From: Candidatus Omnitrophota bacterium
GTDB taxonomy: Bacteria > Omnitrophota > Omnitrophia > Omnitrophales > Aquincolibacteriaceae
NCBI GenBank assembly: GCA_016196565.1
Contig: JACPXK010000046.1
Coordinates: 1-10,271 of the forward strand
Length of the DNA stretch: 10,271 nucleotides
Reading direction: 5' to 3'
The translations under genes and the position numbers were made by a program. Numbering within the stretch: the first letter of the stretch is position 1; each line of letters starts with the position of its first letter. This document shows, one piece after another, positions 768-10,271 of the stretch. The notes below the pieces were generated by a model. That model was not told the DNA's origin. It saw nothing but the letters and a program-made list of their open reading frames with translations, and did no database searches.

Positions 768-809
768 GATGCCTTCATTTTTCGGTTCACCCGTGATAAA
801 GGAGACAGG

Positions 810-1007
810 ATGAAGCTTTATATTAATGGAGAAAACAAAACGATTGAGTCGATTAAGACCTTGCATGAGCTTTTGGAGCGTTTTCATCTCAATCCGAACT
901 CGGTTGTGGTCGAACGCAATAAAAACGTGGTGGCGCGGCAAGAACTAGCCGAGTGTCCGGTGACCGAAGGGGATCAAATCGAGATTGTTCAATTTGTGGG
1001 CGGGGGA
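810..1007 (+). other. ThiS-like ubiquitin-fold domain (TopA residues 1-66)
   Basis: This is the sub-region encoding the fused beta-grasp domain. Free ThiS proteins are about 64-68 residues and end in Gly-Gly. The Gly carboxylate is adenylylated by ThiF and converted to thiocarboxylate, which supplies sulfur for the thiazole of thiamine. Here the domain has the expected length, the ThiS-like helix HELLERF, the EGDQIEIVQFV strand and a terminal GGG at 999-1007. Translation continues into GADEVP without a stop. As fused, the Gly tail is not free, so sulfur-carrier activity would need proteolytic release. Otherwise the domain may act only as a binding module. Confidence 0.75.
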
Positions 1008-3221
1008 GCCGACGAAGTTCCGATCGAGGAAGCAGCTGTTCCCGCGACTCCAAAACCTGCCGCCCCGAAAAAACCCCGCAAAGCAAAAGCCAAGAAAGAA
1101 AGTGCATCAGGCACTTCACGCGTGAAAGGTCCTGCCAATCTTGTCATCGTCGAATCTCCCGCCAAAGCGAAAACCATCAATAAATTTCTGGGGGATGATT
1201 TTCTGGTGGAGGCCTCCATGGGCCATGTGCGCGATCTTCCCAAAAGCAAAATGGGAGTGGATATCGCCGGTGATTTTACGCCTTCCTATATTATCAGCAA
1301 AAAAGCCCGCAAAACCGTGACCCATTTAAAAAATCAGGCAAAAGGGAAAACCGGAATTTATTTGGCGCCTGACCCTGACCGTGAAGGGGAGGCCATCAGC
1401 TGGCATTTGGAACATATTTTTAAAGAAGCCAACGGCAAGGACGTTCAAATCCGCCGCGTCGTTTTTAATGAAATCACCAAAGAGGCGGTGAAGGAAGCCT
1501 TCAAACATCCGCGTGAAATTGCCATGAATCTTGTCAATGCCCAGCAGGCCCGGAGAATTCTTGACCGGATTGTGGGTTATGAACTCAGCCCGCTTTTATG
1601 GCGCAAAGTCGGACGGGGGCTCAGTGCCGGCCGCGTGCAATCGGTGGCGCTCAGGCTGATCGTCGATCGGGAACGTGAAATTAAAAGTTTCGTGCCGGTA
1701 GAATATTGGTCCATTGAAGCCAAACTTTCCTCCGAGAAAAAAGAAAATGCCGAAAAAGTTTTCATTGCCAAGCTGGAAAAAATCGGCAAAGACAAGGTTG
1801 AAATCAAAAACCGGGAAGATGCCGAAAAAATCCGCCAGGACATTCTTAATCATCCTTTCAAAGTCTCTAAAGTCGATAAAAGTGAACGCCGGCGAAAACC
1901 TCAAGCCCCTTACACAACCAGCAAAATTCAACAAGAGGCCTATAACCGTTTGGGATTTCCGGCCGCGAAAACCATGCGTGTGGCGCAAAAACTCTATGAA
2001 GGCGTCGAGATCGGAGATGAAGGCAGTACCGGTTTGATTACCTATATGAGAACCGATTCCGTCAATATCGCCAAATCCGCTCAGGATGAAGTCGTCCAAT
2101 TCATCCGGCAGAAATTCGGCGCTGATTATTTGCCAAAAGAGCCTCCGGTTTACAAAGCCAAAAAAGGCGCCCAAGAAGCCCATGAAGCGATTCGTCCCAC
2201 TTCGGTCCGCCGTGAACCTCAGGCCCTGCGTCAATACCTTGCCGACGATGAGTTCAAACTCTACGAATTAATTTGGCAGAAATTCGTGGCTTCACAAATG
2301 TCTGCGGCCGTGGATGAGCATATGAGCGTGGTAATCGACGTCAAAGAAAAATATTTTTTCAAAACTACCGGCCGCATTAATTTATTTCCGGGGTTTTCTA
2401 TCGTGTTCAGCGAGGCCAAAGCCCAGAAAGAGAAAAAAGAAGAAAAAGAAAAACAAGAAGGGGAAGAAGACGAACCCATTTACGAATTGCCTCAACTGAC
2501 TGTGGGCGAAATTCTAAAATTGCATGAACTCATGGGCTATCAGCATTTCACCAAACCGCCGGCACGTTATAACGACGCCAGCCTCGTCAAAACCTTGGAA
2601 GAAAAAGGCATCGGTCGCCCCAGTACGTATGCCCCTACTATCTATACCATTCTCGTGCGTGAATATGTGAACCGCAAAGGGGGCGCCCTTATTCCTACCG
2701 AACTTGGCGAAACCGTAGTGGATTTGCTCGTCAAACATTTTCCCAAAGTCATGGAAATTGAATTTACCGCGGTCATGGAAGAAGAGCTGGATAAAATCGA
2801 AGAAGGCGAAATGGAATGGGTGGCCGTATTAAAAGATTTTTACGGTCCTTTTGAAACGGACCTGACTCAAGCCCGGAAAGAAATGCAGAATATGCGCCAG
2901 GAAGTGGTGACCACGGAATACAAGTGCGATATCTGCGGCAAAAATATGGTGATCAAATGGGGCCGGTTTGGAAAGTTTCTGGCTTGTCCCGGTTTTCCGG
3001 AATGCAAATACACCCGCTCCATCCCTTTGGGGGTTTTTTGTCCTGAGCCGGGCTGCGGCGGGGAACTGGTTAAAAGACTGTCGAAAAAAAGACGCACCTT
3101 TTACGGCTGTTCGAATTATCCCAAATGCACCTACATCGCCAACAAACTTCCCACCAAGGGGGAGGCCATCAGCGAGGACGAGCAGATTTCGGAAACGGAT
3201 CGTGAAACCCTGGGGCCGTGA
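810..3221 (+). CDS. topA: DNA topoisomerase I with N-terminal ThiS-like domain
   Basis: Type IA topoisomerase, which relaxes negative supercoils by cutting and passing single strands. Residues 1-66 look like a whole ThiS/MoaD sulfur-carrier beta-grasp domain (KTLHELLERF, later EGDQIEIVQFVGGG), ending at Gly64-66 as free ThiS does. Residues 67-108 are an Ala/Pro/Lys linker. The topoisomerase core starts near 109. The Toprim acidic residues are Glu115 (VIVESPAKAKT) and Asp188, Asp190 and Glu192 (DPDREGE). The catalytic tyrosine is Tyr412 in TYMRTDS. A Lys/Glu-rich insertion lies at about 537-556. Two C-terminal zinc fingers use Cys706/709/726/732 and Cys744/749/767/773. The ATG at 810 has a good Shine-Dalgarno (AAAGGAG). 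No other convincing start precedes the core; an in-frame GTG near 1122 has no good ribosome-binding site. The stop overlaps the xerC start as TGATG. The topoisomerase identity is firm and the ThiS resemblance is strong; what the fused domain does is unknown. Confidence 0.95.
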   Translation: MKLYINGENKTIESIKTLHELLERFHLNPNSVVVERNKNVVARQELAECPVTEGDQIEIVQFVGGGADEVPIEEAAVPATPKPAAPKKPRKAKAKKESASGTSRVKGPANLVIVESPAKAKTINKFLGDDFLVEASMGHVRDLPKSKMGVDIAGDFTPSYIISKKARKTVTHLKNQAKGKTGIYLAPDPDREGEAISWHLEHIFKEANGKDVQIRRVVFNEITKEAVKEAFKHPREIAMNLVNAQQARRILDRIVGYELSPLLWRKVGRGLSAGRVQSVALRLIVDREREIKSFVPVEYWSIEAKLSSEKKENAEKVFIAKLEKIGKDKVEIKNREDAEKIRQDILNHPFKVSKVDKSERRRKPQAPYTTSKIQQEAYNRLGFPAAKTMRVAQKLYEGVEIGDEGSTGLITYMRTDSVNIAKSAQDEVVQFIRQKFGADYLPKEPPVYKAKKGAQEAHEAIRPTSVRREPQALRQYLADDEFKLYELIWQKFVASQMSAAVDEHMSVVIDVKEKYFFKTTGRINLFPGFSIVFSEAKAQKEKKEEKEKQEGEEDEPIYELPQLTVGEILKLHELMGYQHFTKPPARYNDASLVKTLEEKGIGRPSTYAPTIYTILVREYVNRKGGALIPTELGETVVDLLVKHFPKVMEIEFTAVMEEELDKIEEGEMEWVAVLKDFYGPFETDLTQARKEMQNMRQEVVTTEYKCDICGKNMVIKWGRFGKFLACPGFPECKYTRSIPLGVFCPEPGCGGELVKRLSKKRRTFYGCSNYPKCTYIANKLPTKGEAISEDEQISETDRETLGP

Positions 3222-5462: not shown

Positions 5463-6471
5463 AGGCCGTGAAAATGGAACTCTCTCTCAAATCCTGTTTC
5501 CTTTTCTTTGGCTGGCGGAAGGAATTTACGGAAAAACGGTTGAGGTAGCGCGCTCGCTTCACGAGAAAAAAATTCTTCCCAGAAAACGCCTCCCGTTTCC
5601 TGTCATCAGCATCGGCAACCTTACCTGGGGCGGCACCGGCAAAACGCCGCTGGTGGAATACCTTGCCCGCAAGGCCAGCGCTCACAATAAAAATGTTTTA
5701 ATCCTTACCCGCGGTTACGGAAAAGACGAGGTGGAACAGCTCCGTAACAATCTGCCCCGCGTGATGATCGGAGTCGGGGCCGACCGTGCGGCCGTTGCTG
5801 CAGAACTTGCCAAAAAACATAAGATTGATCTGGCCATTCTTGACGATGGATTCCAGCACTGGCCGCTTGAACGTGATTTAGAGATTATCACCGTCAATGC
5901 CCTGAACCCCTTTGGGAATCGCCGTCTTCTCCCGCGCGGTATTTTGCGTGAACCGGCCGCGATGCTGAACAAAGCGTCTGTGATTGTCATTACGCATGCC
6001 GATCTCATACCGCCTGCGGAACTTACGAAGCTGCGCGAGGAAATTCAAAAATTGGCTCCCAAAGCCCAAGTGATCGATTCCTGTCTGGAGCCGCTTTTTT
6101 TCTACCGGGCCCACAAACGTTCCCGGCTCTCGGTGGACAGGTTGCAAAAACATAAAGTTACCACCTTTTCGGGCGTGGGGACGCCGCGTTCCTTTCAGCT
6201 TCTTTTAAGCCATTTTCAAATCCGCCCCATCCGTAATTTCGAATTTCCGGACCATCATCATTTTTCCGAAAAAGAACTGGGAGAAATCAAAAAAGTCAGC
6301 GAATCGGCCTCCAGCGAAGAAATCATCACCACGGAAAAAGATTTTTACCGTGCCCCGGAAATTATCACGCGGGTTTTAAATCCTTTGGTCCTGGCTGTGC
6401 GCCTCAAGATTTTGAAAGACGAGGAAATCTTGGCCTATCAAATTTTCCGGTCTCTCGGAGTGATTAAGTGA
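5422..6471 (+). CDS. lpxK: Tetraacyldisaccharide 4'-kinase LpxK
   Basis: LpxK phosphorylates the 4' position of tetraacyldisaccharide-1-phosphate to give lipid IVA, the WaaA substrate. An N-terminal hydrophobic helix (about residues 23-36, ILFPFLWLAEGIYG) fits a membrane-associated kinase. The P-loop is GNLTWGGTGKTP at 65-76, with Lys74 and Thr75. TRGYG (96-100) and DDGFQHWPLERDLEI (from Asp141, with His146) are family motifs; the corresponding acidic and His residues are catalytic in studied LpxK. FPDHHHFSEKEL and ITTEKDFYR occur near the C-terminus as expected. Its length of 349 is close to the usual 325-350. The start at 5422 has an AAAGGAA ribosome-binding site and lies inside waaA. The stop TGA overlaps the following GTG start. 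Sitting next to waaA fits consecutive steps of the Raetz pathway. Confidence 0.95.
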   Translation: MIRPVRNYLRFLAEGRENGTLSQILFPFLWLAEGIYGKTVEVARSLHEKKILPRKRLPFPVISIGNLTWGGTGKTPLVEYLARKASAHNKNVLILTRGYGKDEVEQLRNNLPRVMIGVGADRAAVAAELAKKHKIDLAILDDGFQHWPLERDLEIITVNALNPFGNRRLLPRGILREPAAMLNKASVIVITHADLIPPAELTKLREEIQKLAPKAQVIDSCLEPLFFYRAHKRSRLSVDRLQKHKVTTFSGVGTPRSFQLLLSHFQIRPIRNFEFPDHHHFSEKELGEIKKVSESASSEEIITTEKDFYRAPEIITRVLNPLVLAVRLKILKDEEILAYQIFRSLGVIK

Positions 6472-8273
6472 TCGAAAAAATACTCGATTTTATCGTCTCT
6501 CATTTTGTGCGGCTGCTTTCCCGGGGGATAAGCCGGATGCCGGAGGCCTCAGCCCTTGCTTTGGGAAGGGGGATGGGACGGTGTGTTTTTTATTTTTCGT
6601 CGAGGCGGCATGTGGCCTATGCGGATATGAAAGCGGCTTTTGGCTCTCGTTTCACGGCGCGCGAACGTTGGCGTTTGGTCCGGGAACATTATGAAAATCT
6701 CGGTCAAATGGGCTGTGAGTTTTTGCGTTCTTCAAAATTGAATGCACAAGATTTTGAAAAAAAGGTGAAGGTCCACAACTGGGACCGCGTGCTGCAAACT
6801 TTTGGAAGCGATCAGGGGATGGTTTTTTTGACCGCGCATTTTGGAAATTGGGAATTGATGCAAAAATTGCCCGTTTTTTCCGAAAAGCCGCTGCGGGTGC
6901 TTGTGAGGGACCAAAAATTTTCCAGCCTCAACCGGATTCTTAATGAATTCCGCGGCGGCCAAGGTTCTCTTACGATAAGGCGCGGCATGGGCATGCGGGA
7001 ACTTTTGCGGGCTCTCAGGCGTAAGGGATGGGTGGGGCTTTTGGGCGATCAAGACGCCGGCAAAAACGAGGGCGTGATTCTTCCGTTTCTAGGCCGCAAA
7101 ACCACAATTCCTACCGGCGCGTTTGAATGGGCTGCCCGCACAGAAAGTTTGCTTGTCCCTTGTTTTCTGGTCCGCCGTCCGGATCAAATTCATCATGATT
7201 TTTATTTTGAAGAAGCGATAGAGTGTTCCCTGAATGAAAACGGGGATTACACCGCTCCGGCAAAAAAATATTTGGAAGTCCTTGAAAGCTATATCACCCG
7301 TTTCCCCAGCCAATGGCTTTGGGGAACCAAACGATGGAAATATAGCTGGACTAAGCGCATTGTGATTCTCTCAGACGGAAAACCGGGCCATGTCAAACAA
7401 GCCGAAGCCCTCGCCATGAAATTTCAATCTTTGAAAACTCAATACGGACGCCCGGGCATGGAATATCCGATCGAAACCATCTTTGTCAAATTCCGTTCGG
7501 ATTGGCATAAAAATCTTTTTTATGCCGCGGCTTTCTTCCTGCTTCCGTGGGCGCAGGGAAGAATTCCGTGGCTGCGTTTCTTTTTTACGGACGAAACCTG
7601 GAAGGCCATTGAGCATGTAAGCGCTGATTTTTTTATTTCTGCCGGCTCCAGCCTTGTACCGCTTAATCTTTGCCTGGCGCGCGAATCGCGGGCCAAAAGC
7701 GTGATTCTCATGAAACCCGCTTTTCCTTTTAATTTATTCCGTTATGATTTGGCCGTGATCGGAGTTCACGATAGCGGCATTATTCCTCAAGAGGCCTTCC
7801 GCACACTTCTTACGCCCAGTGCGATGGAAGAGGAAGATTTGGAAGAAGCCGGCCGTCTTCTTAAAAAAGAATTGAAAAATCCGGACCGGGTAAAGATCGC
7901 CGTTTTTTTGGGCGGACCGACACGGCGCTTTCAAATGGAACTGAGCGAAGTTGAAAAATTGACCACGATTTTGGAAAAGGTTTCGCTGGAAGAAGGGGAT
8001 TATCTTCTTACGACCTCCCGCCGTACCCCGGAATTTTTAGAAAAATTTCTTAAAGAAAAATTAAAAATCCAAAATGCCTGCCAGCTGCTTATCCTCGCGC
8101 GCGAAAATAACCGCCCTTACGCCGTGCAGGGGATGATGGCCGGCCAGCGACCAGGCCAGAAAGATCAGCATGCCGGGATAGGTCATGACGTCGAAAATCA
8201 GGAAGTGGTCGATGTCGATGAAGGTGACCGCCAAAATCCGGTGGATCAAAAATCAGGCGGAAGGCCGTCTTAA
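6468..8273 (+). CDS. LpxL-type acyltransferase fused to ELM1-type domain, C-terminus disrupted
   Basis: Residues 1 to about 292 are a lipid A secondary acyltransferase (LpxL/HtrB family). They carry the catalytic HX4E motif as His124 and Glu129 (TAHFGNWELM), then RDQKFSSLNRI, GDQDAG and a closing QWLWGTKRWKY. The family uses acyl-ACP to acylate lipid A at the inner membrane. From about 297 an ELM1 (DUF1022, GtrOC1-like putative glycosyltransferase) domain begins directly: RIVILSDGKPGH (298-308 region), FISAGSSLVPLN, FLGGPTRRFQM and LTTSRRTPEFL. Native-looking sequence stops at Gly559 (VQGMMAG). Residues 560-601 are an out-of-frame read across an inverted foreign fragment and are not expected to be functional. 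The conserved Ser-rich SxSM-type region normal in ELM1 is absent. The GTG start at 6468 has GGAG at 6457-6460 and overlaps the lpxK stop. The acyltransferase half should still work; the ELM1 half is probably broken. Confidence 0.85.
   Translation: MIEKILDFIVSHFVRLLSRGISRMPEASALALGRGMGRCVFYFSSRRHVAYADMKAAFGSRFTARERWRLVREHYENLGQMGCEFLRSSKLNAQDFEKKVKVHNWDRVLQTFGSDQGMVFLTAHFGNWELMQKLPVFSEKPLRVLVRDQKFSSLNRILNEFRGGQGSLTIRRGMGMRELLRALRRKGWVGLLGDQDAGKNEGVILPFLGRKTTIPTGAFEWAARTESLLVPCFLVRRPDQIHHDFYFEEAIECSLNENGDYTAPAKKYLEVLESYITRFPSQWLWGTKRWKYSWTKRIVILSDGKPGHVKQAEALAMKFQSLKTQYGRPGMEYPIETIFVKFRSDWHKNLFYAAAFFLLPWAQGRIPWLRFFFTDETWKAIEHVSADFFISAGSSLVPLNLCLARESRAKSVILMKPAFPFNLFRYDLAVIGVHDSGIIPQEAFRTLLTPSAMEEEDLEEAGRLLKKELKNPDRVKIAVFLGGPTRRFQMELSEVEKLTTILEKVSLEEGDYLLTTSRRTPEFLEKFLKEKLKIQNACQLLILARENNRPYAVQGMMAGQRPGQKDQHAGIGHDVENQEVVDVDEGDRQNPVDQKSGGRPS
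8138..8232 (-). pseudogene. Inverted fragment of a type IV prepilin peptidase
   Basis: Read on the minus strand from about 8231 down to 8139, this gives 31 residues containing FIDIDHFLI, DVMTYPGM and a hydrophobic segment. This matches the region around the first catalytic aspartate of A24 prepilin peptidases (GspO/PilD), where FIDxDHxxIPDxxTxPG is typical. Here the usual IPD proline is Phe. In this reading 28 of 31 codons end in G or C. A 31-codon stretch of the interrupted gene (7611-7703) has 16 of 31, and the remnant downstream has 14 of 29. The minus-strand frame does not continue as peptidase on either side: it becomes the antisense of ELM1. So this is an embedded fragment, not a gene. 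It may be a genuine insertion or a sequencing/assembly chimera. Confidence 0.7.
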
Positions 8274-8322
8274 AGAAAATGAAGACGGCGCCTTGATTGC
8301 CCGGTTGGAAAGAATTTTATGA
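8233..8322 (+). pseudogene. Out-of-frame remnant of the ELM1 C-terminus
   Basis: In the frame shifted by one from the upstream gene, this reads KIRWIKNQAEGRLK, then an acidic-to-basic helix ending ARLERIL and TGA at 8320-8322. It looks like the closing helix of the ELM1 protein, and its GC3 (14 of 29 codons) matches the host genes. The TGA overlaps the next gene's ATG (8319-8321) as ATGA, the tight spacing seen elsewhere in this operon. This supports it being the original gene end. An intact ELM1 would need roughly 60-70 more residues between Gly559 and this remnant, judged from general knowledge of the family. Confidence 0.6.
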
Positions 8323-10271
8323 GAGTATTGCAAGTCCTTCCGTCCCTGGATGTCGGAGGAGTGGAGCGCGGGGTGGTGGATCTTGCCCGCGCCATGAAAA
8401 AGCGGGGAGATGATATCGTCGTAATTTCATCCGGCGGAGAGCTTGTGGCGGAACTTGAAAAAATGAATGTCCGCCATTACAAACTTCCCGTGGATCAGAA
8501 ATCCATTTTCTCGCTCGCTTTGGTGGGAAAAATCGCGGAGATTATCGACAAGGAAAGAATCGAAGTGGTTCATGCCCGGAGCCGGGTGCCGGCCTGGCTG
8601 GCTTGGTTTGCCACACGCCAAACCGGTGTGCCGTTTGTCACGACCTGCCACGGGTATTATTCCACGCATTTGCTCAGCCGGGTCATGGGATGGGGCAAGC
8701 GCGTGATTGCGATTTCCAGTGTGGTCGGACGCCACATGATTGATGATTTCGGAGTTTCTCCCGAAAGAATACGCCTGGTCCATCGAGGCATTGATTTTTC
8801 TCAGTTTTCTTATGTGCCGGGGCGTTATGACACAAATCCAAAATCTTTTCGCATTATCAATGTGGCGCGCCTTTCTCCGATCAAGGGGCAGATAGAATTT
8901 TTGAAAGCCGTGCATCTTTTGCGACGCCATGTGCAGCATTTGGAAGTTTGGCTGGTGGGGTCTGAGGTTCGCGGCAAAAATAAATACACCGGCCTTATTC
9001 AAAAAACCATTCAGCAGCTCGGCCTTCAATCCACCGTCAAATTGCTCGGCACCCGCAGGGATATCGCCGATTTGATGGCCCAGTCGGATCTTGTGGTGCT
9101 TTCAACCCTTGTCCCCGAGGCTTTCGGGCGCGTGGTGGTGGAAGCCGGCGCGGTGGGAAGAACGGTTCTGGCCACCCGTGTGGGCGGAGTGCTCGACATT
9201 ATCGATCATGAAGAAAACGGAATCCTGGTGACGCCCGGCAATGTGGAGGAAATGGCGGAACGCATGCGCGAACTTTTGAGTGACCGCGCCAAATCCAAAC
9301 GGCTGGCGGAAAATCTTCATGAAAAAGTCAAAAACCGTTTTACGCTGGAACAAATGACGGAAAAGACGCTTGAGGTTTATCAGGAAGTGCGGCGTTATAA
9401 AAATATTCTTGTCATCAAGCTGGGGGCCATGGGAGATCTCATCCTTGCCGTCCCGAGTTTCCGCATGATCCGCCGCCGTTTCCCGGACGCCCGCATCAGC
9501 CTTTTGGTGGATAAAAAAATCGCGTCCCTTGTTTCGCGCTGTCCTTATTTGGACGAAATTATTCCGGTGGATAGAAAAAAAATCTCACGCCTTTCATTTT
9601 TGGCCAAGCTTTCCAAAAGGCTGCGCGGCGAGACTTATGACCTTTCCGTCGATTTGCAGAATTCCAAATGGACTCATTTAATTGCTTTTCTTGCCGGCAT
9701 TCCTCAGCGTTTTGGATTTTCCCGCGGGGGACTTGGCTTCTTGTTAAACCGGCCGGATAAAAATTTTCATGCCGGGGACGAACCGGTGCGTCATCAGTTC
9801 CGCATTTTGAGCAAACTCGGCGTGAAGGAATTTGACGATGAGTTGGAACTTTGGCCTGAAGCGGAATCGGAAAAAAGGATTCAGGAAATTTGTGACGCCA
9901 TAGACCCCATTCGTTCCTGCAAATGGGTGGGGTTGGTGATCGGTTCCAGCCCCAAATGGCTGACCAAACGCTGGCCCATGGCCAATTTCAGCGCCTTGGC
10001 GGACCGTCTTATCAAAAAATTAAACTGCCGTATTGTTTTGATCGGAGCCCGTGAAGATGCGGAGCTCGTCAAAGAATTCCAAACCCGTTTTCCGGAAAAG
10101 GTCGTCGACCTGGTGGGAAAAACCTCACTTAGTGATTTGACGGCGCTTATGAAACAAATTCATGTGCTTGTGACGGGAGACACCGCGCCTTTGCATGTGG
10201 CGGGCGCCATGAAAACAAAAATCGTCGCCCTCTTTGGCCCCACCGATCCCAAGCGGCATATGCCCCCCGGC
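8319..10271 (+). CDS. GT4-GT9 double glycosyltransferase, partial (runs off the right edge)
   Basis: The frame is open for 651 codons with no stop before the window end. Residues 1 to about 358 form a GT4 retaining glycosyltransferase: VLPSLDVGGVERGVVDLA glycine-rich start, CHGYYSTHLLSRVMGWGK, VHRGIDFSQF, NVARLSPIKGQ and the EX7E motif as Glu267/Glu275 (PEAFGRVVVEAG), the nucleotide-sugar binding glutamates. From residue 361 a GT9 (heptosyltransferase-like) domain begins: ILVIKLGAMGDLILAVPSF, VDLQNS, a central GSSPKWLTKRWP, and VTGDTAPLHVAGA with FGPTDPKRHMPPG at the edge. It probably adds two sugars of the LPS core to Kdo-lipid A; donor and acceptor are not predictable. The ATG overlaps the TGA of the ELM1 remnant. 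The junction (about 9390-9400) shows no sign of a frameshift. A short C-terminal part is missing. Confidence 0.9.
   Translation, partial: MRVLQVLPSLDVGGVERGVVDLARAMKKRGDDIVVISSGGELVAELEKMNVRHYKLPVDQKSIFSLALVGKIAEIIDKERIEVVHARSRVPAWLAWFATRQTGVPFVTTCHGYYSTHLLSRVMGWGKRVIAISSVVGRHMIDDFGVSPERIRLVHRGIDFSQFSYVPGRYDTNPKSFRIINVARLSPIKGQIEFLKAVHLLRRHVQHLEVWLVGSEVRGKNKYTGLIQKTIQQLGLQSTVKLLGTRRDIADLMAQSDLVVLSTLVPEAFGRVVVEAGAVGRTVLATRVGGVLDIIDHEENGILVTPGNVEEMAERMRELLSDRAKSKRLAENLHEKVKNRFTLEQMTEKTLEVYQEVRRYKNILVIKLGAMGDLILAVPSFRMIRRRFPDARISLLVDKKIASLVSRCPYLDEIIPVDRKKISRLSFLAKLSKRLRGETYDLSVDLQNSKWTHLIAFLAGIPQRFGFSRGGLGFLLNRPDKNFHAGDEPVRHQFRILSKLGVKEFDDELELWPEAESEKRIQEICDAIDPIRSCKWVGLVIGSSPKWLTKRWPMANFSALADRLIKKLNCRIVLIGAREDAELVKEFQTRFPEKVVDLVGKTSLSDLTALMKQIHVLVTGDTAPLHVAGAMKTKIVALFGPTDPKRHMPPG

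Follow-up and report, generated by a model that had tools for sequence, protein, structure and literature searches.

A ThiS sulfur-carrier domain fused in frame to DNA topoisomerase I in Omnitrophota, probably as a precursor of both proteins

Why should a small sulfur carrier be translated as the head of a DNA topoisomerase? The ThiF/ThiS reaction adenylates ThiS only at a free C-terminus. Hence, a ThiS fused to another protein must be cut if it is to feed ThiG. The puzzle arises from a contig of a Candidatus Omnitrophota bacterium (JACPXK010000046.1; 10,271 nucleotides, the whole of which we call the window), where a single unbroken frame runs from the ATG at 810 to the stop at 3219-3221 and encodes an 803-residue protein made of a ThiS domain, a linker and a complete topoisomerase I (Table 1). 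A preliminary description of this DNA had read ThiS features ending in FVGGG, an Ala/Pro/Lys linker and a full topoisomerase I in one frame, and both the profile matches and the frame agree with it. The FVGGG that ends the domain is encoded at 993-1007. As translated, the ThiS of the window has no free C-terminal Gly-Gly: the frame runs on into TopA, which makes it a fusion domain and not a standalone ThiS.

Table 1. Features of the ThiS-TopA gene, in window coordinates.
Feature	Position	Strand	Evidence
Shine-Dalgarno-like AAAGGAG, 5' of the fusion gene	798..804	+	sequence reading
ThiS-TopA fusion gene, 803 aa plus stop	810..3221	+	frame and profile matches
ThiS domain (ubiquitin-fold sulfur carrier), residues 1-66	810..1007	+	TIGR01683, PF02597, AF2, Foldseek
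GGG, residues 64-66; cut predicted to follow residue 66	999..1007	+	Gly-Gly conservation
Ala/Pro/Lys-rich linker, residues 67-109	1008..1136	+	low pLDDT; free variation in length and sequence
Toprim domain, residues 111-222, including DPDREGE	1140..1475	+	PF01751
Topoisom_bac domain, residues 237-675	1518..2834	+	PF01131
Putative catalytic Tyr412 within GLITYMRTDS	2043-2045	+	motif invariant in 21/21 aligned fusions
C-terminal zinc-ribbon region, right edge approximate	2922..3218	+	PF01396, two stretches, best at residues 705-739

The assignment of the N-terminal domain to ThiS, also proposed at the outset, holds both by profiles and by predicted structure. Scored on residues 1-66, TIGR01683 (thiS) matches residues 4-66 with 71.4 bits (E 5.8e-20, cut-off 37.45); PF02597 matches residues 5-66 with 45.1 bits (cut-off 22.5). 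The AF2 model of residues 1-66, made from 11 aligned domains, has a pLDDT of 91.9 and a predicted beta-grasp fold. Its six best PDB matches by Foldseek are all ThiS proteins (3cwi, 1zud, 1f0z, 2lek, 2k5p and 1tyg; TM by query length 0.78-0.85), among them the ThiS-ThiF complex (1zud) and the thiazole synthase-ThiS complex (1tyg). On the other side of the linker, residues 111-738 match TIGR01051 (topA_bact) with 797.6 bits, and profiles and alignment find the Toprim domain, the Topoisom_bac domain with its tyrosine motif and the zinc ribbons of a TopA; we take the tyrosine of this motif to be catalytic by analogy with E. coli TopA. The whole-protein AF2 model, from 21 aligned fusions, has a mean pLDDT of 73.1, falling below 50 at residues 63-105, i.e. 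the GGG and the linker. The layout is that of a MoaX-type precursor, with an N-terminal carrier, an internal Gly-Gly and a junction predicted to be exposed, as judged from the low pLDDT only.

The fusion is real and recurrent. A missed stop or frameshift at about 1000-1010, which the preliminary description had feared, can hardly be entertained, whether as an assembly or as a sequencing error: searching relatives for a TopA with the same N-terminal ThiS gave the same architecture in other records, both in 44 further proteins and in no fewer than 19 of the 285 Omnitrophota genomes. A whole-protein search with window residues 1-85 returned one other fusion (P0002) and two more searches seeded from other fusion groups returned 17 and 26 proteins. 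With the window this makes 45 fused proteins, partly the same as those of the fusion genomes. Seven of the protein matches carried an organism name, in every case Omnitrophota or Omnitrophica. The figure of 19 fusions, like that of 20 adjacent thiS genes given below, is a lower bound taken from the best matches listed, TopA matches having been tabulated from part of the best matches listed over 275 genomes. A contig search also found the fusion in Candidatus Omnitrophota nzgw333 (contig L001, genome G001), where its neighbours, as read from sequence, resemble those of the window (xerC, a kdtA-like gene and lpxK). The closest relative of the window among the genomes examined is G100, with 86% TopA identity.

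Fusions fall into groups by their junction. The window, P0002, G100, G001, G069, G021, G045, G083 and G033 have the long Ala/Pro/Lys linker; G079 and G063 have a GGG-KGGA junction; a short linker precedes LV(I/V)VESPAKCKT in G190, G248, G172, G213, G260 and G032; and PVGGG is followed by four residues in G119, G020, G034 and G274. The fused protein is the sole TopA match, among the matches listed, in the seven long-linker genomes. Elsewhere in the window, a 132-aa protein at 260-658, with no family above cut-off, has a similar-looking counterpart in the corresponding position of nzgw333 (L001:7454-7858). A lipid A acyltransferase (PF03279) and Mito_fiss_Elm1 (PF06258) share one frame at 6468-8273, whose end looks, by eye, out of register relative to the longer 662-aa counterpart at L001:13689-15677. 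The frame at 8319-10271 joins a family 4/1 glycosyltransferase to a family 9 heptosyltransferase domain, and L001:15674-17833 is similar.

If the ThiS domain were still used as a sulfur carrier, one would look for its C-terminal glycines and its pathway partners. Gly65 and Gly66 are invariant in the 21 aligned fusions, and Gly-Gly is kept in 45/45 fused proteins, window included (43 VGGG, 1 VAGG, 1 IGGG), with 4-44 residues between it and the TopA motif. The ThiS part has pN/pS of 0.04-0.40 in 8 pairs, with synonymous sites saturated in several of them, and its selection is less strict than that of TopA in 7 of the 8. As judged from these ratios, the ThiS part of the fusion is under purifying selection. 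Strong ThiG matches (E<1e-40) occur in 139 of the 285 genomes, of which 135 also have ThiS, and in 18 of the 19 fusion genomes, G213 being the fusion without ThiG. For 13 of these 18, the matches listed contain no TIGR01683 match other than the fused domain. As the only ThiS detected in these 13 genomes, it probably has to be released before it can serve ThiG. In none of the 18 does ThiG adjoin the fusion; it lies near glgA/glgC-like and leu genes (names read from sequence). Where thiS is not linked to topA, it directly precedes thiG in many genomes. ThiF-type (E1-like) enzymes are present in 18/19 fusion genomes and ThiC in 15/19.

Thi4 was dropped as an alternative thiazole enzyme, with just partial, FAD-fold-like matches in the 19 fusion genomes. 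For the step before ThiG, which yields the glycine-derived precursor, no ThiH exceeded the cut-off in 39 genomes, a cut-off passed by only 2 of 14 control genomes, and sub-cut-off matches of about 290-310 bits occur in G020, G034, G119, G274 and G063. ThiO-like matches of 193-253 bits are found in six of the seven long-linker genomes, G021 alone exceeding the cut-off of 250.8; the seventh, G083, has a partial match of 132 bits, and other fusion groups reach at most 86 bits. The profile search gave no clear ThiH or ThiO candidate in the six genomes of the G032 type.

One might speculate that ThiS remains on TopA and gives it a module for binding protein or DNA, the sulfur for ThiG coming via another carrier such as a CysO/MoaD-like protein. 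We regard this as unlikely, though well worth weighing. Each of the seven long-linker genomes (G001, G021, G033, G045, G069, G083 and G100) has at least one further PF02597 protein, G100 has a second, weaker TIGR01683 match, and G213 keeps the fusion without ThiG, all of which except the G100 match we count in its favour. But a binding module has no evident reason to keep Gly-Gly in every fused protein, and in six fusion genomes, all with ThiG, the fused domain is the only PF02597 match (G020, G034, G063, G119, G172 and G274). Besides, G051, near the clade of the window, has a plain TopA, no ThiG, and neither fused nor free ThiS, at odds with such a role.

If ThiS is freed from TopA by a protease that cuts after the glycines, the distribution of JAMM proteases points to a candidate. 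We counted JAMM at E<1e-10, which gives 77 genomes (132 at 1e-3), and read ThiS tails for 153 genes in 142 of the 156 ThiS-positive genomes, calling extended any ThiS that continues past Gly-Gly, be it fused to TopA, to a CysK-like sequence or to ThiG (G131), or bearing a tail, in most cases a short one. JAMM is present in 56/63 genomes with at least one extended ThiS vs 15/79 with exact ends only (Fisher p 1.6e-17, kinship ignored). The share is 41/44 among extended-ThiS genomes once TopA-fusion genomes are removed, 15/19 among TopA-fusion genomes, and just 2/129 among ThiS-negative genomes. Among unfused thiS genes adjacent to topA, JAMM accompanies 8 of 9 with 1-6 extra residues vs 2 of 11 without. 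Once kinship is considered, the topA tree offers at most five independent pairs, too few for significance alone; usually 2-4 are consistent and 0-1 inconsistent, with up to 2 inconsistent in some pairings. JAMM and ThiF genes adjoin in G020, G034, G119 and G274, the fusion being the sole PF02597 carrier detected there. The JAMM motif (Glu, His-x-His, Ser and Asp) is intact in 9/9 aligned proteins. Two profiles, the second from an alignment of 9 Omnitrophota JAMMs that did find the controls G001 and G119, detected no JAMM in G100, G079, G172 and G213. The case of G100 would suit a ThiS that stays attached to TopA, but such absences are weak evidence since draft genomes may be incomplete.

JAMM may have other, even main, clients, given that it adjoins a cysM-like gene in G001, is fused to one elsewhere, and adjoins a second ThiS in G190, G248 and G260. 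The 15 exact-end genomes with JAMM likewise speak for other uses. The fusion of JAMM to a cysM-like gene is profile-tested in G069, where a cysM-like cysteine synthase (PALP) and JAMM form one 484-aa frame (L144:1794-3248), and in G021 and G063 it was seen by similarity clustering only. In G119 and G020 (L146 and L148) the JAMM and ThiF-type E1 genes overlap, and a TerC gene comes next in L146. Other carriers of the phylum have extensions of their own. A profile-tested frame of G235 (L060:1489-2628) joins ThiS to a cysteine synthase (CysK) through an internal GGG. ThiS frames of 358-394 aa occur elsewhere in the phylum; the example profile-tested as PALP, a ThiS-CysK-like fusion (L149:2111-3256), lies in G032, a genome that also bears ThiS-TopA. 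Frames of CysK-fusion size are found in 17 genomes, 16 of them with JAMM, and one, that of G131, is ThiS-ThiG. In G001 a CysO/MoaD-like carrier ending in AGGI, one residue past Gly-Gly, follows a threonine-synthase-like gene, as named from its sequence (L006:1453-1764, contig C50).

How might such a fusion have arisen? At least 20 additional genomes have thiS as a gene of its own a short way upstream of topA (18 by one tally and two by another), the distance being 465 nt in G004, one of the 18. The ThiS products of these unfused genes end at GGG or 1-6 residues beyond. In 18 of the 19 genomes measured the TopA motif comes 14-148 nt after thiS, and 9 of the 19 have short tails; G081 is outside these 19 and included in the tail reading. 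In a tree built from 52 TopA proteins, of which 21 are fused, 20 have an adjacent thiS and 11 have no thiS at topA, the fused label changes six times, and well-supported branches force at least four of these changes, which may be gains or losses. Where topA begins soon after thiS, loss of the intervening stop would produce the fusion, and this would have happened more than once or with reversals.

This close packing invites a neutral account, in which stops are gained and lost and ThiS is released, with no dedicated processing, by general proteases or an occasional frameshift. The short distances and tails, the repeated changes between fused and unfused states and the 4/19 fusion genomes without JAMM all fit such a by-product. 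Frameshift release is also conceivable in G100, G021 and G045, where an out-of-frame stop lies 2-3 codons beyond GGG; over the 20 fusions tested these stops come 2 to 137 codons on. Yet, JAMM strongly tracks tails and fusions, and we thus hold the neutral account to be highly improbable. For the window itself, frameshifting found no support; the two alternative forward frames meet their first stop 39 and 58 codons beyond GGG.

The preliminary description had also raised a link between thiamine or sulfur metabolism and supercoiling, for which we find no support beyond the covalent linkage itself. Two versions can be told apart. In the first, JAMM must free the carrier from TopA, and this release, following sulfur or vitamin B1 demand, would determine how much mature TopA there is, or how active it is, and hence chromosome supercoiling; we think this quite unlikely. 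In the second, uncut ThiS-TopA would differ in its topoisomerase activity or in how it binds DNA, and supercoiling would be tied to sulfur or thiamine status through cutting or thiocarboxylation. A covalent 1:1 linkage found again in separate lineages agrees with the latter, as does an archaeal system with a JAMM protease, in which covalent attachment of a ubiquitin-like protein inhibits molybdopterin synthase (excerpt of PMC4443979). But the sequence holds no evidence of interaction, the long, disordered linker of the window has a counterpart of only about 4 aa in the G020 group, and Rfam, TPP riboswitch included, gave no match in eight sources (the window, L001, L182, L183, L184, L156, L071 and L072). 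We consider this second version very unlikely. Control by a TPP riboswitch was dropped on the same Rfam result.

Together, these results favour one of the two readings first put forward, that of a cleavable carrier, and support it in part, through the kept Gly-Gly, the co-occurrence with ThiG, the genomes in which the fused domain is the sole ThiS and the association of JAMM with extension. The fusion is probably a precursor yielding both ThiS and TopA. More precisely, we find it fairly probable, from sequence evidence, that the gene encodes a ThiS-TopA precursor cut after GGG, usually by JAMM, and that ThiS then feeds ThiG. The fusion, its conservation, the adjacency of thiS and topA in relatives and the gene co-occurrences are observed, whereas the cut and where it falls, the enzyme that makes it and the fate of the freed ThiS are inferred. 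ThiS would be translated at the N-terminus of topoisomerase I and freed by a cut after Gly66, in most lineages probably by the Prok-JAB (JAMM) protease. With its C-terminal Gly-Gly free, it would be adenylated by a ThiF/MoeB-type enzyme and thiocarboxylated, and ThiG would use the thiocarboxylate in building the vitamin B1 thiazole. TopA would keep the flexible linker and function as usual.

We found no ThiS-TopA fusion in the open-access literature among the matches listed, in a search where ThiS is inseparable from the word 'this' and subscription papers fall outside. Known fusions join ThiS with ThiG, ThiF or sulfite reductase, and MoaD with MoaE (PMC1779556, in part); neither that paper nor PMC1949818 mentions topoisomerase. 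Like our fusion, ThiS-ThiG and ThiS-ThiF place ThiS in frame with another protein, as does the one ThiS-ThiG frame seen here (G131), but their partners are thiamine-pathway enzymes, unlike TopA. Omnitrophota genes annotated only as topoisomerase I can conceal the sole detected ThiS, and thiamine pathways may look incomplete as a result.

Eukaryotic ubiquitin is made fused to ribosomal proteins and then cut off. There, as in ThiS-TopA, a ubiquitin-fold carrier heads an unrelated housekeeping protein, but ThiS-TopA is bacterial, its carrier is a sulfur carrier and not a protein tag, and its partner is topoisomerase I. A removable head of this kind would extend the ubiquitin-style precursor strategy to bacterial sulfur metabolism. 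The repeated switches between fused and unfused states offer material for comparison, and the way JAMM goes with carrier tails points to a testable general rule, that bacterial JAMM proteases expose Gly-Gly on sulfur carriers. In the CysO-Mec-CysM sulfur relay of actinobacteria a carrier, a JAMM protease and a PLP enzyme come together; this relay and the ThiS-CysK fusions of this phylum differ from ThiS-TopA in fusion partner and in pathway. Closest in layout are two molybdopterin proteins in which, as here, a ubiquitin-fold carrier is fused to its partner with the Gly-Gly internal. M. tuberculosis MoaX undergoes a cut between Gly82 and Ser83 that its activity depends on (excerpt of PMC4326299), and the JAMM protease of D. 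radiodurans cleaves its MoaD-MoaE fusion (excerpt of PMC8832034). According to these excerpts cleavage after Gly is needed for function in both, whereas in ThiS-TopA we infer it. In both the partner is the carrier's own enzyme, and here it is an unrelated DNA topoisomerase. If it is cut, ThiS-TopA would by analogy work like MoaX and MoaD-MoaE, but with a partner that has nothing to do with its carrier.
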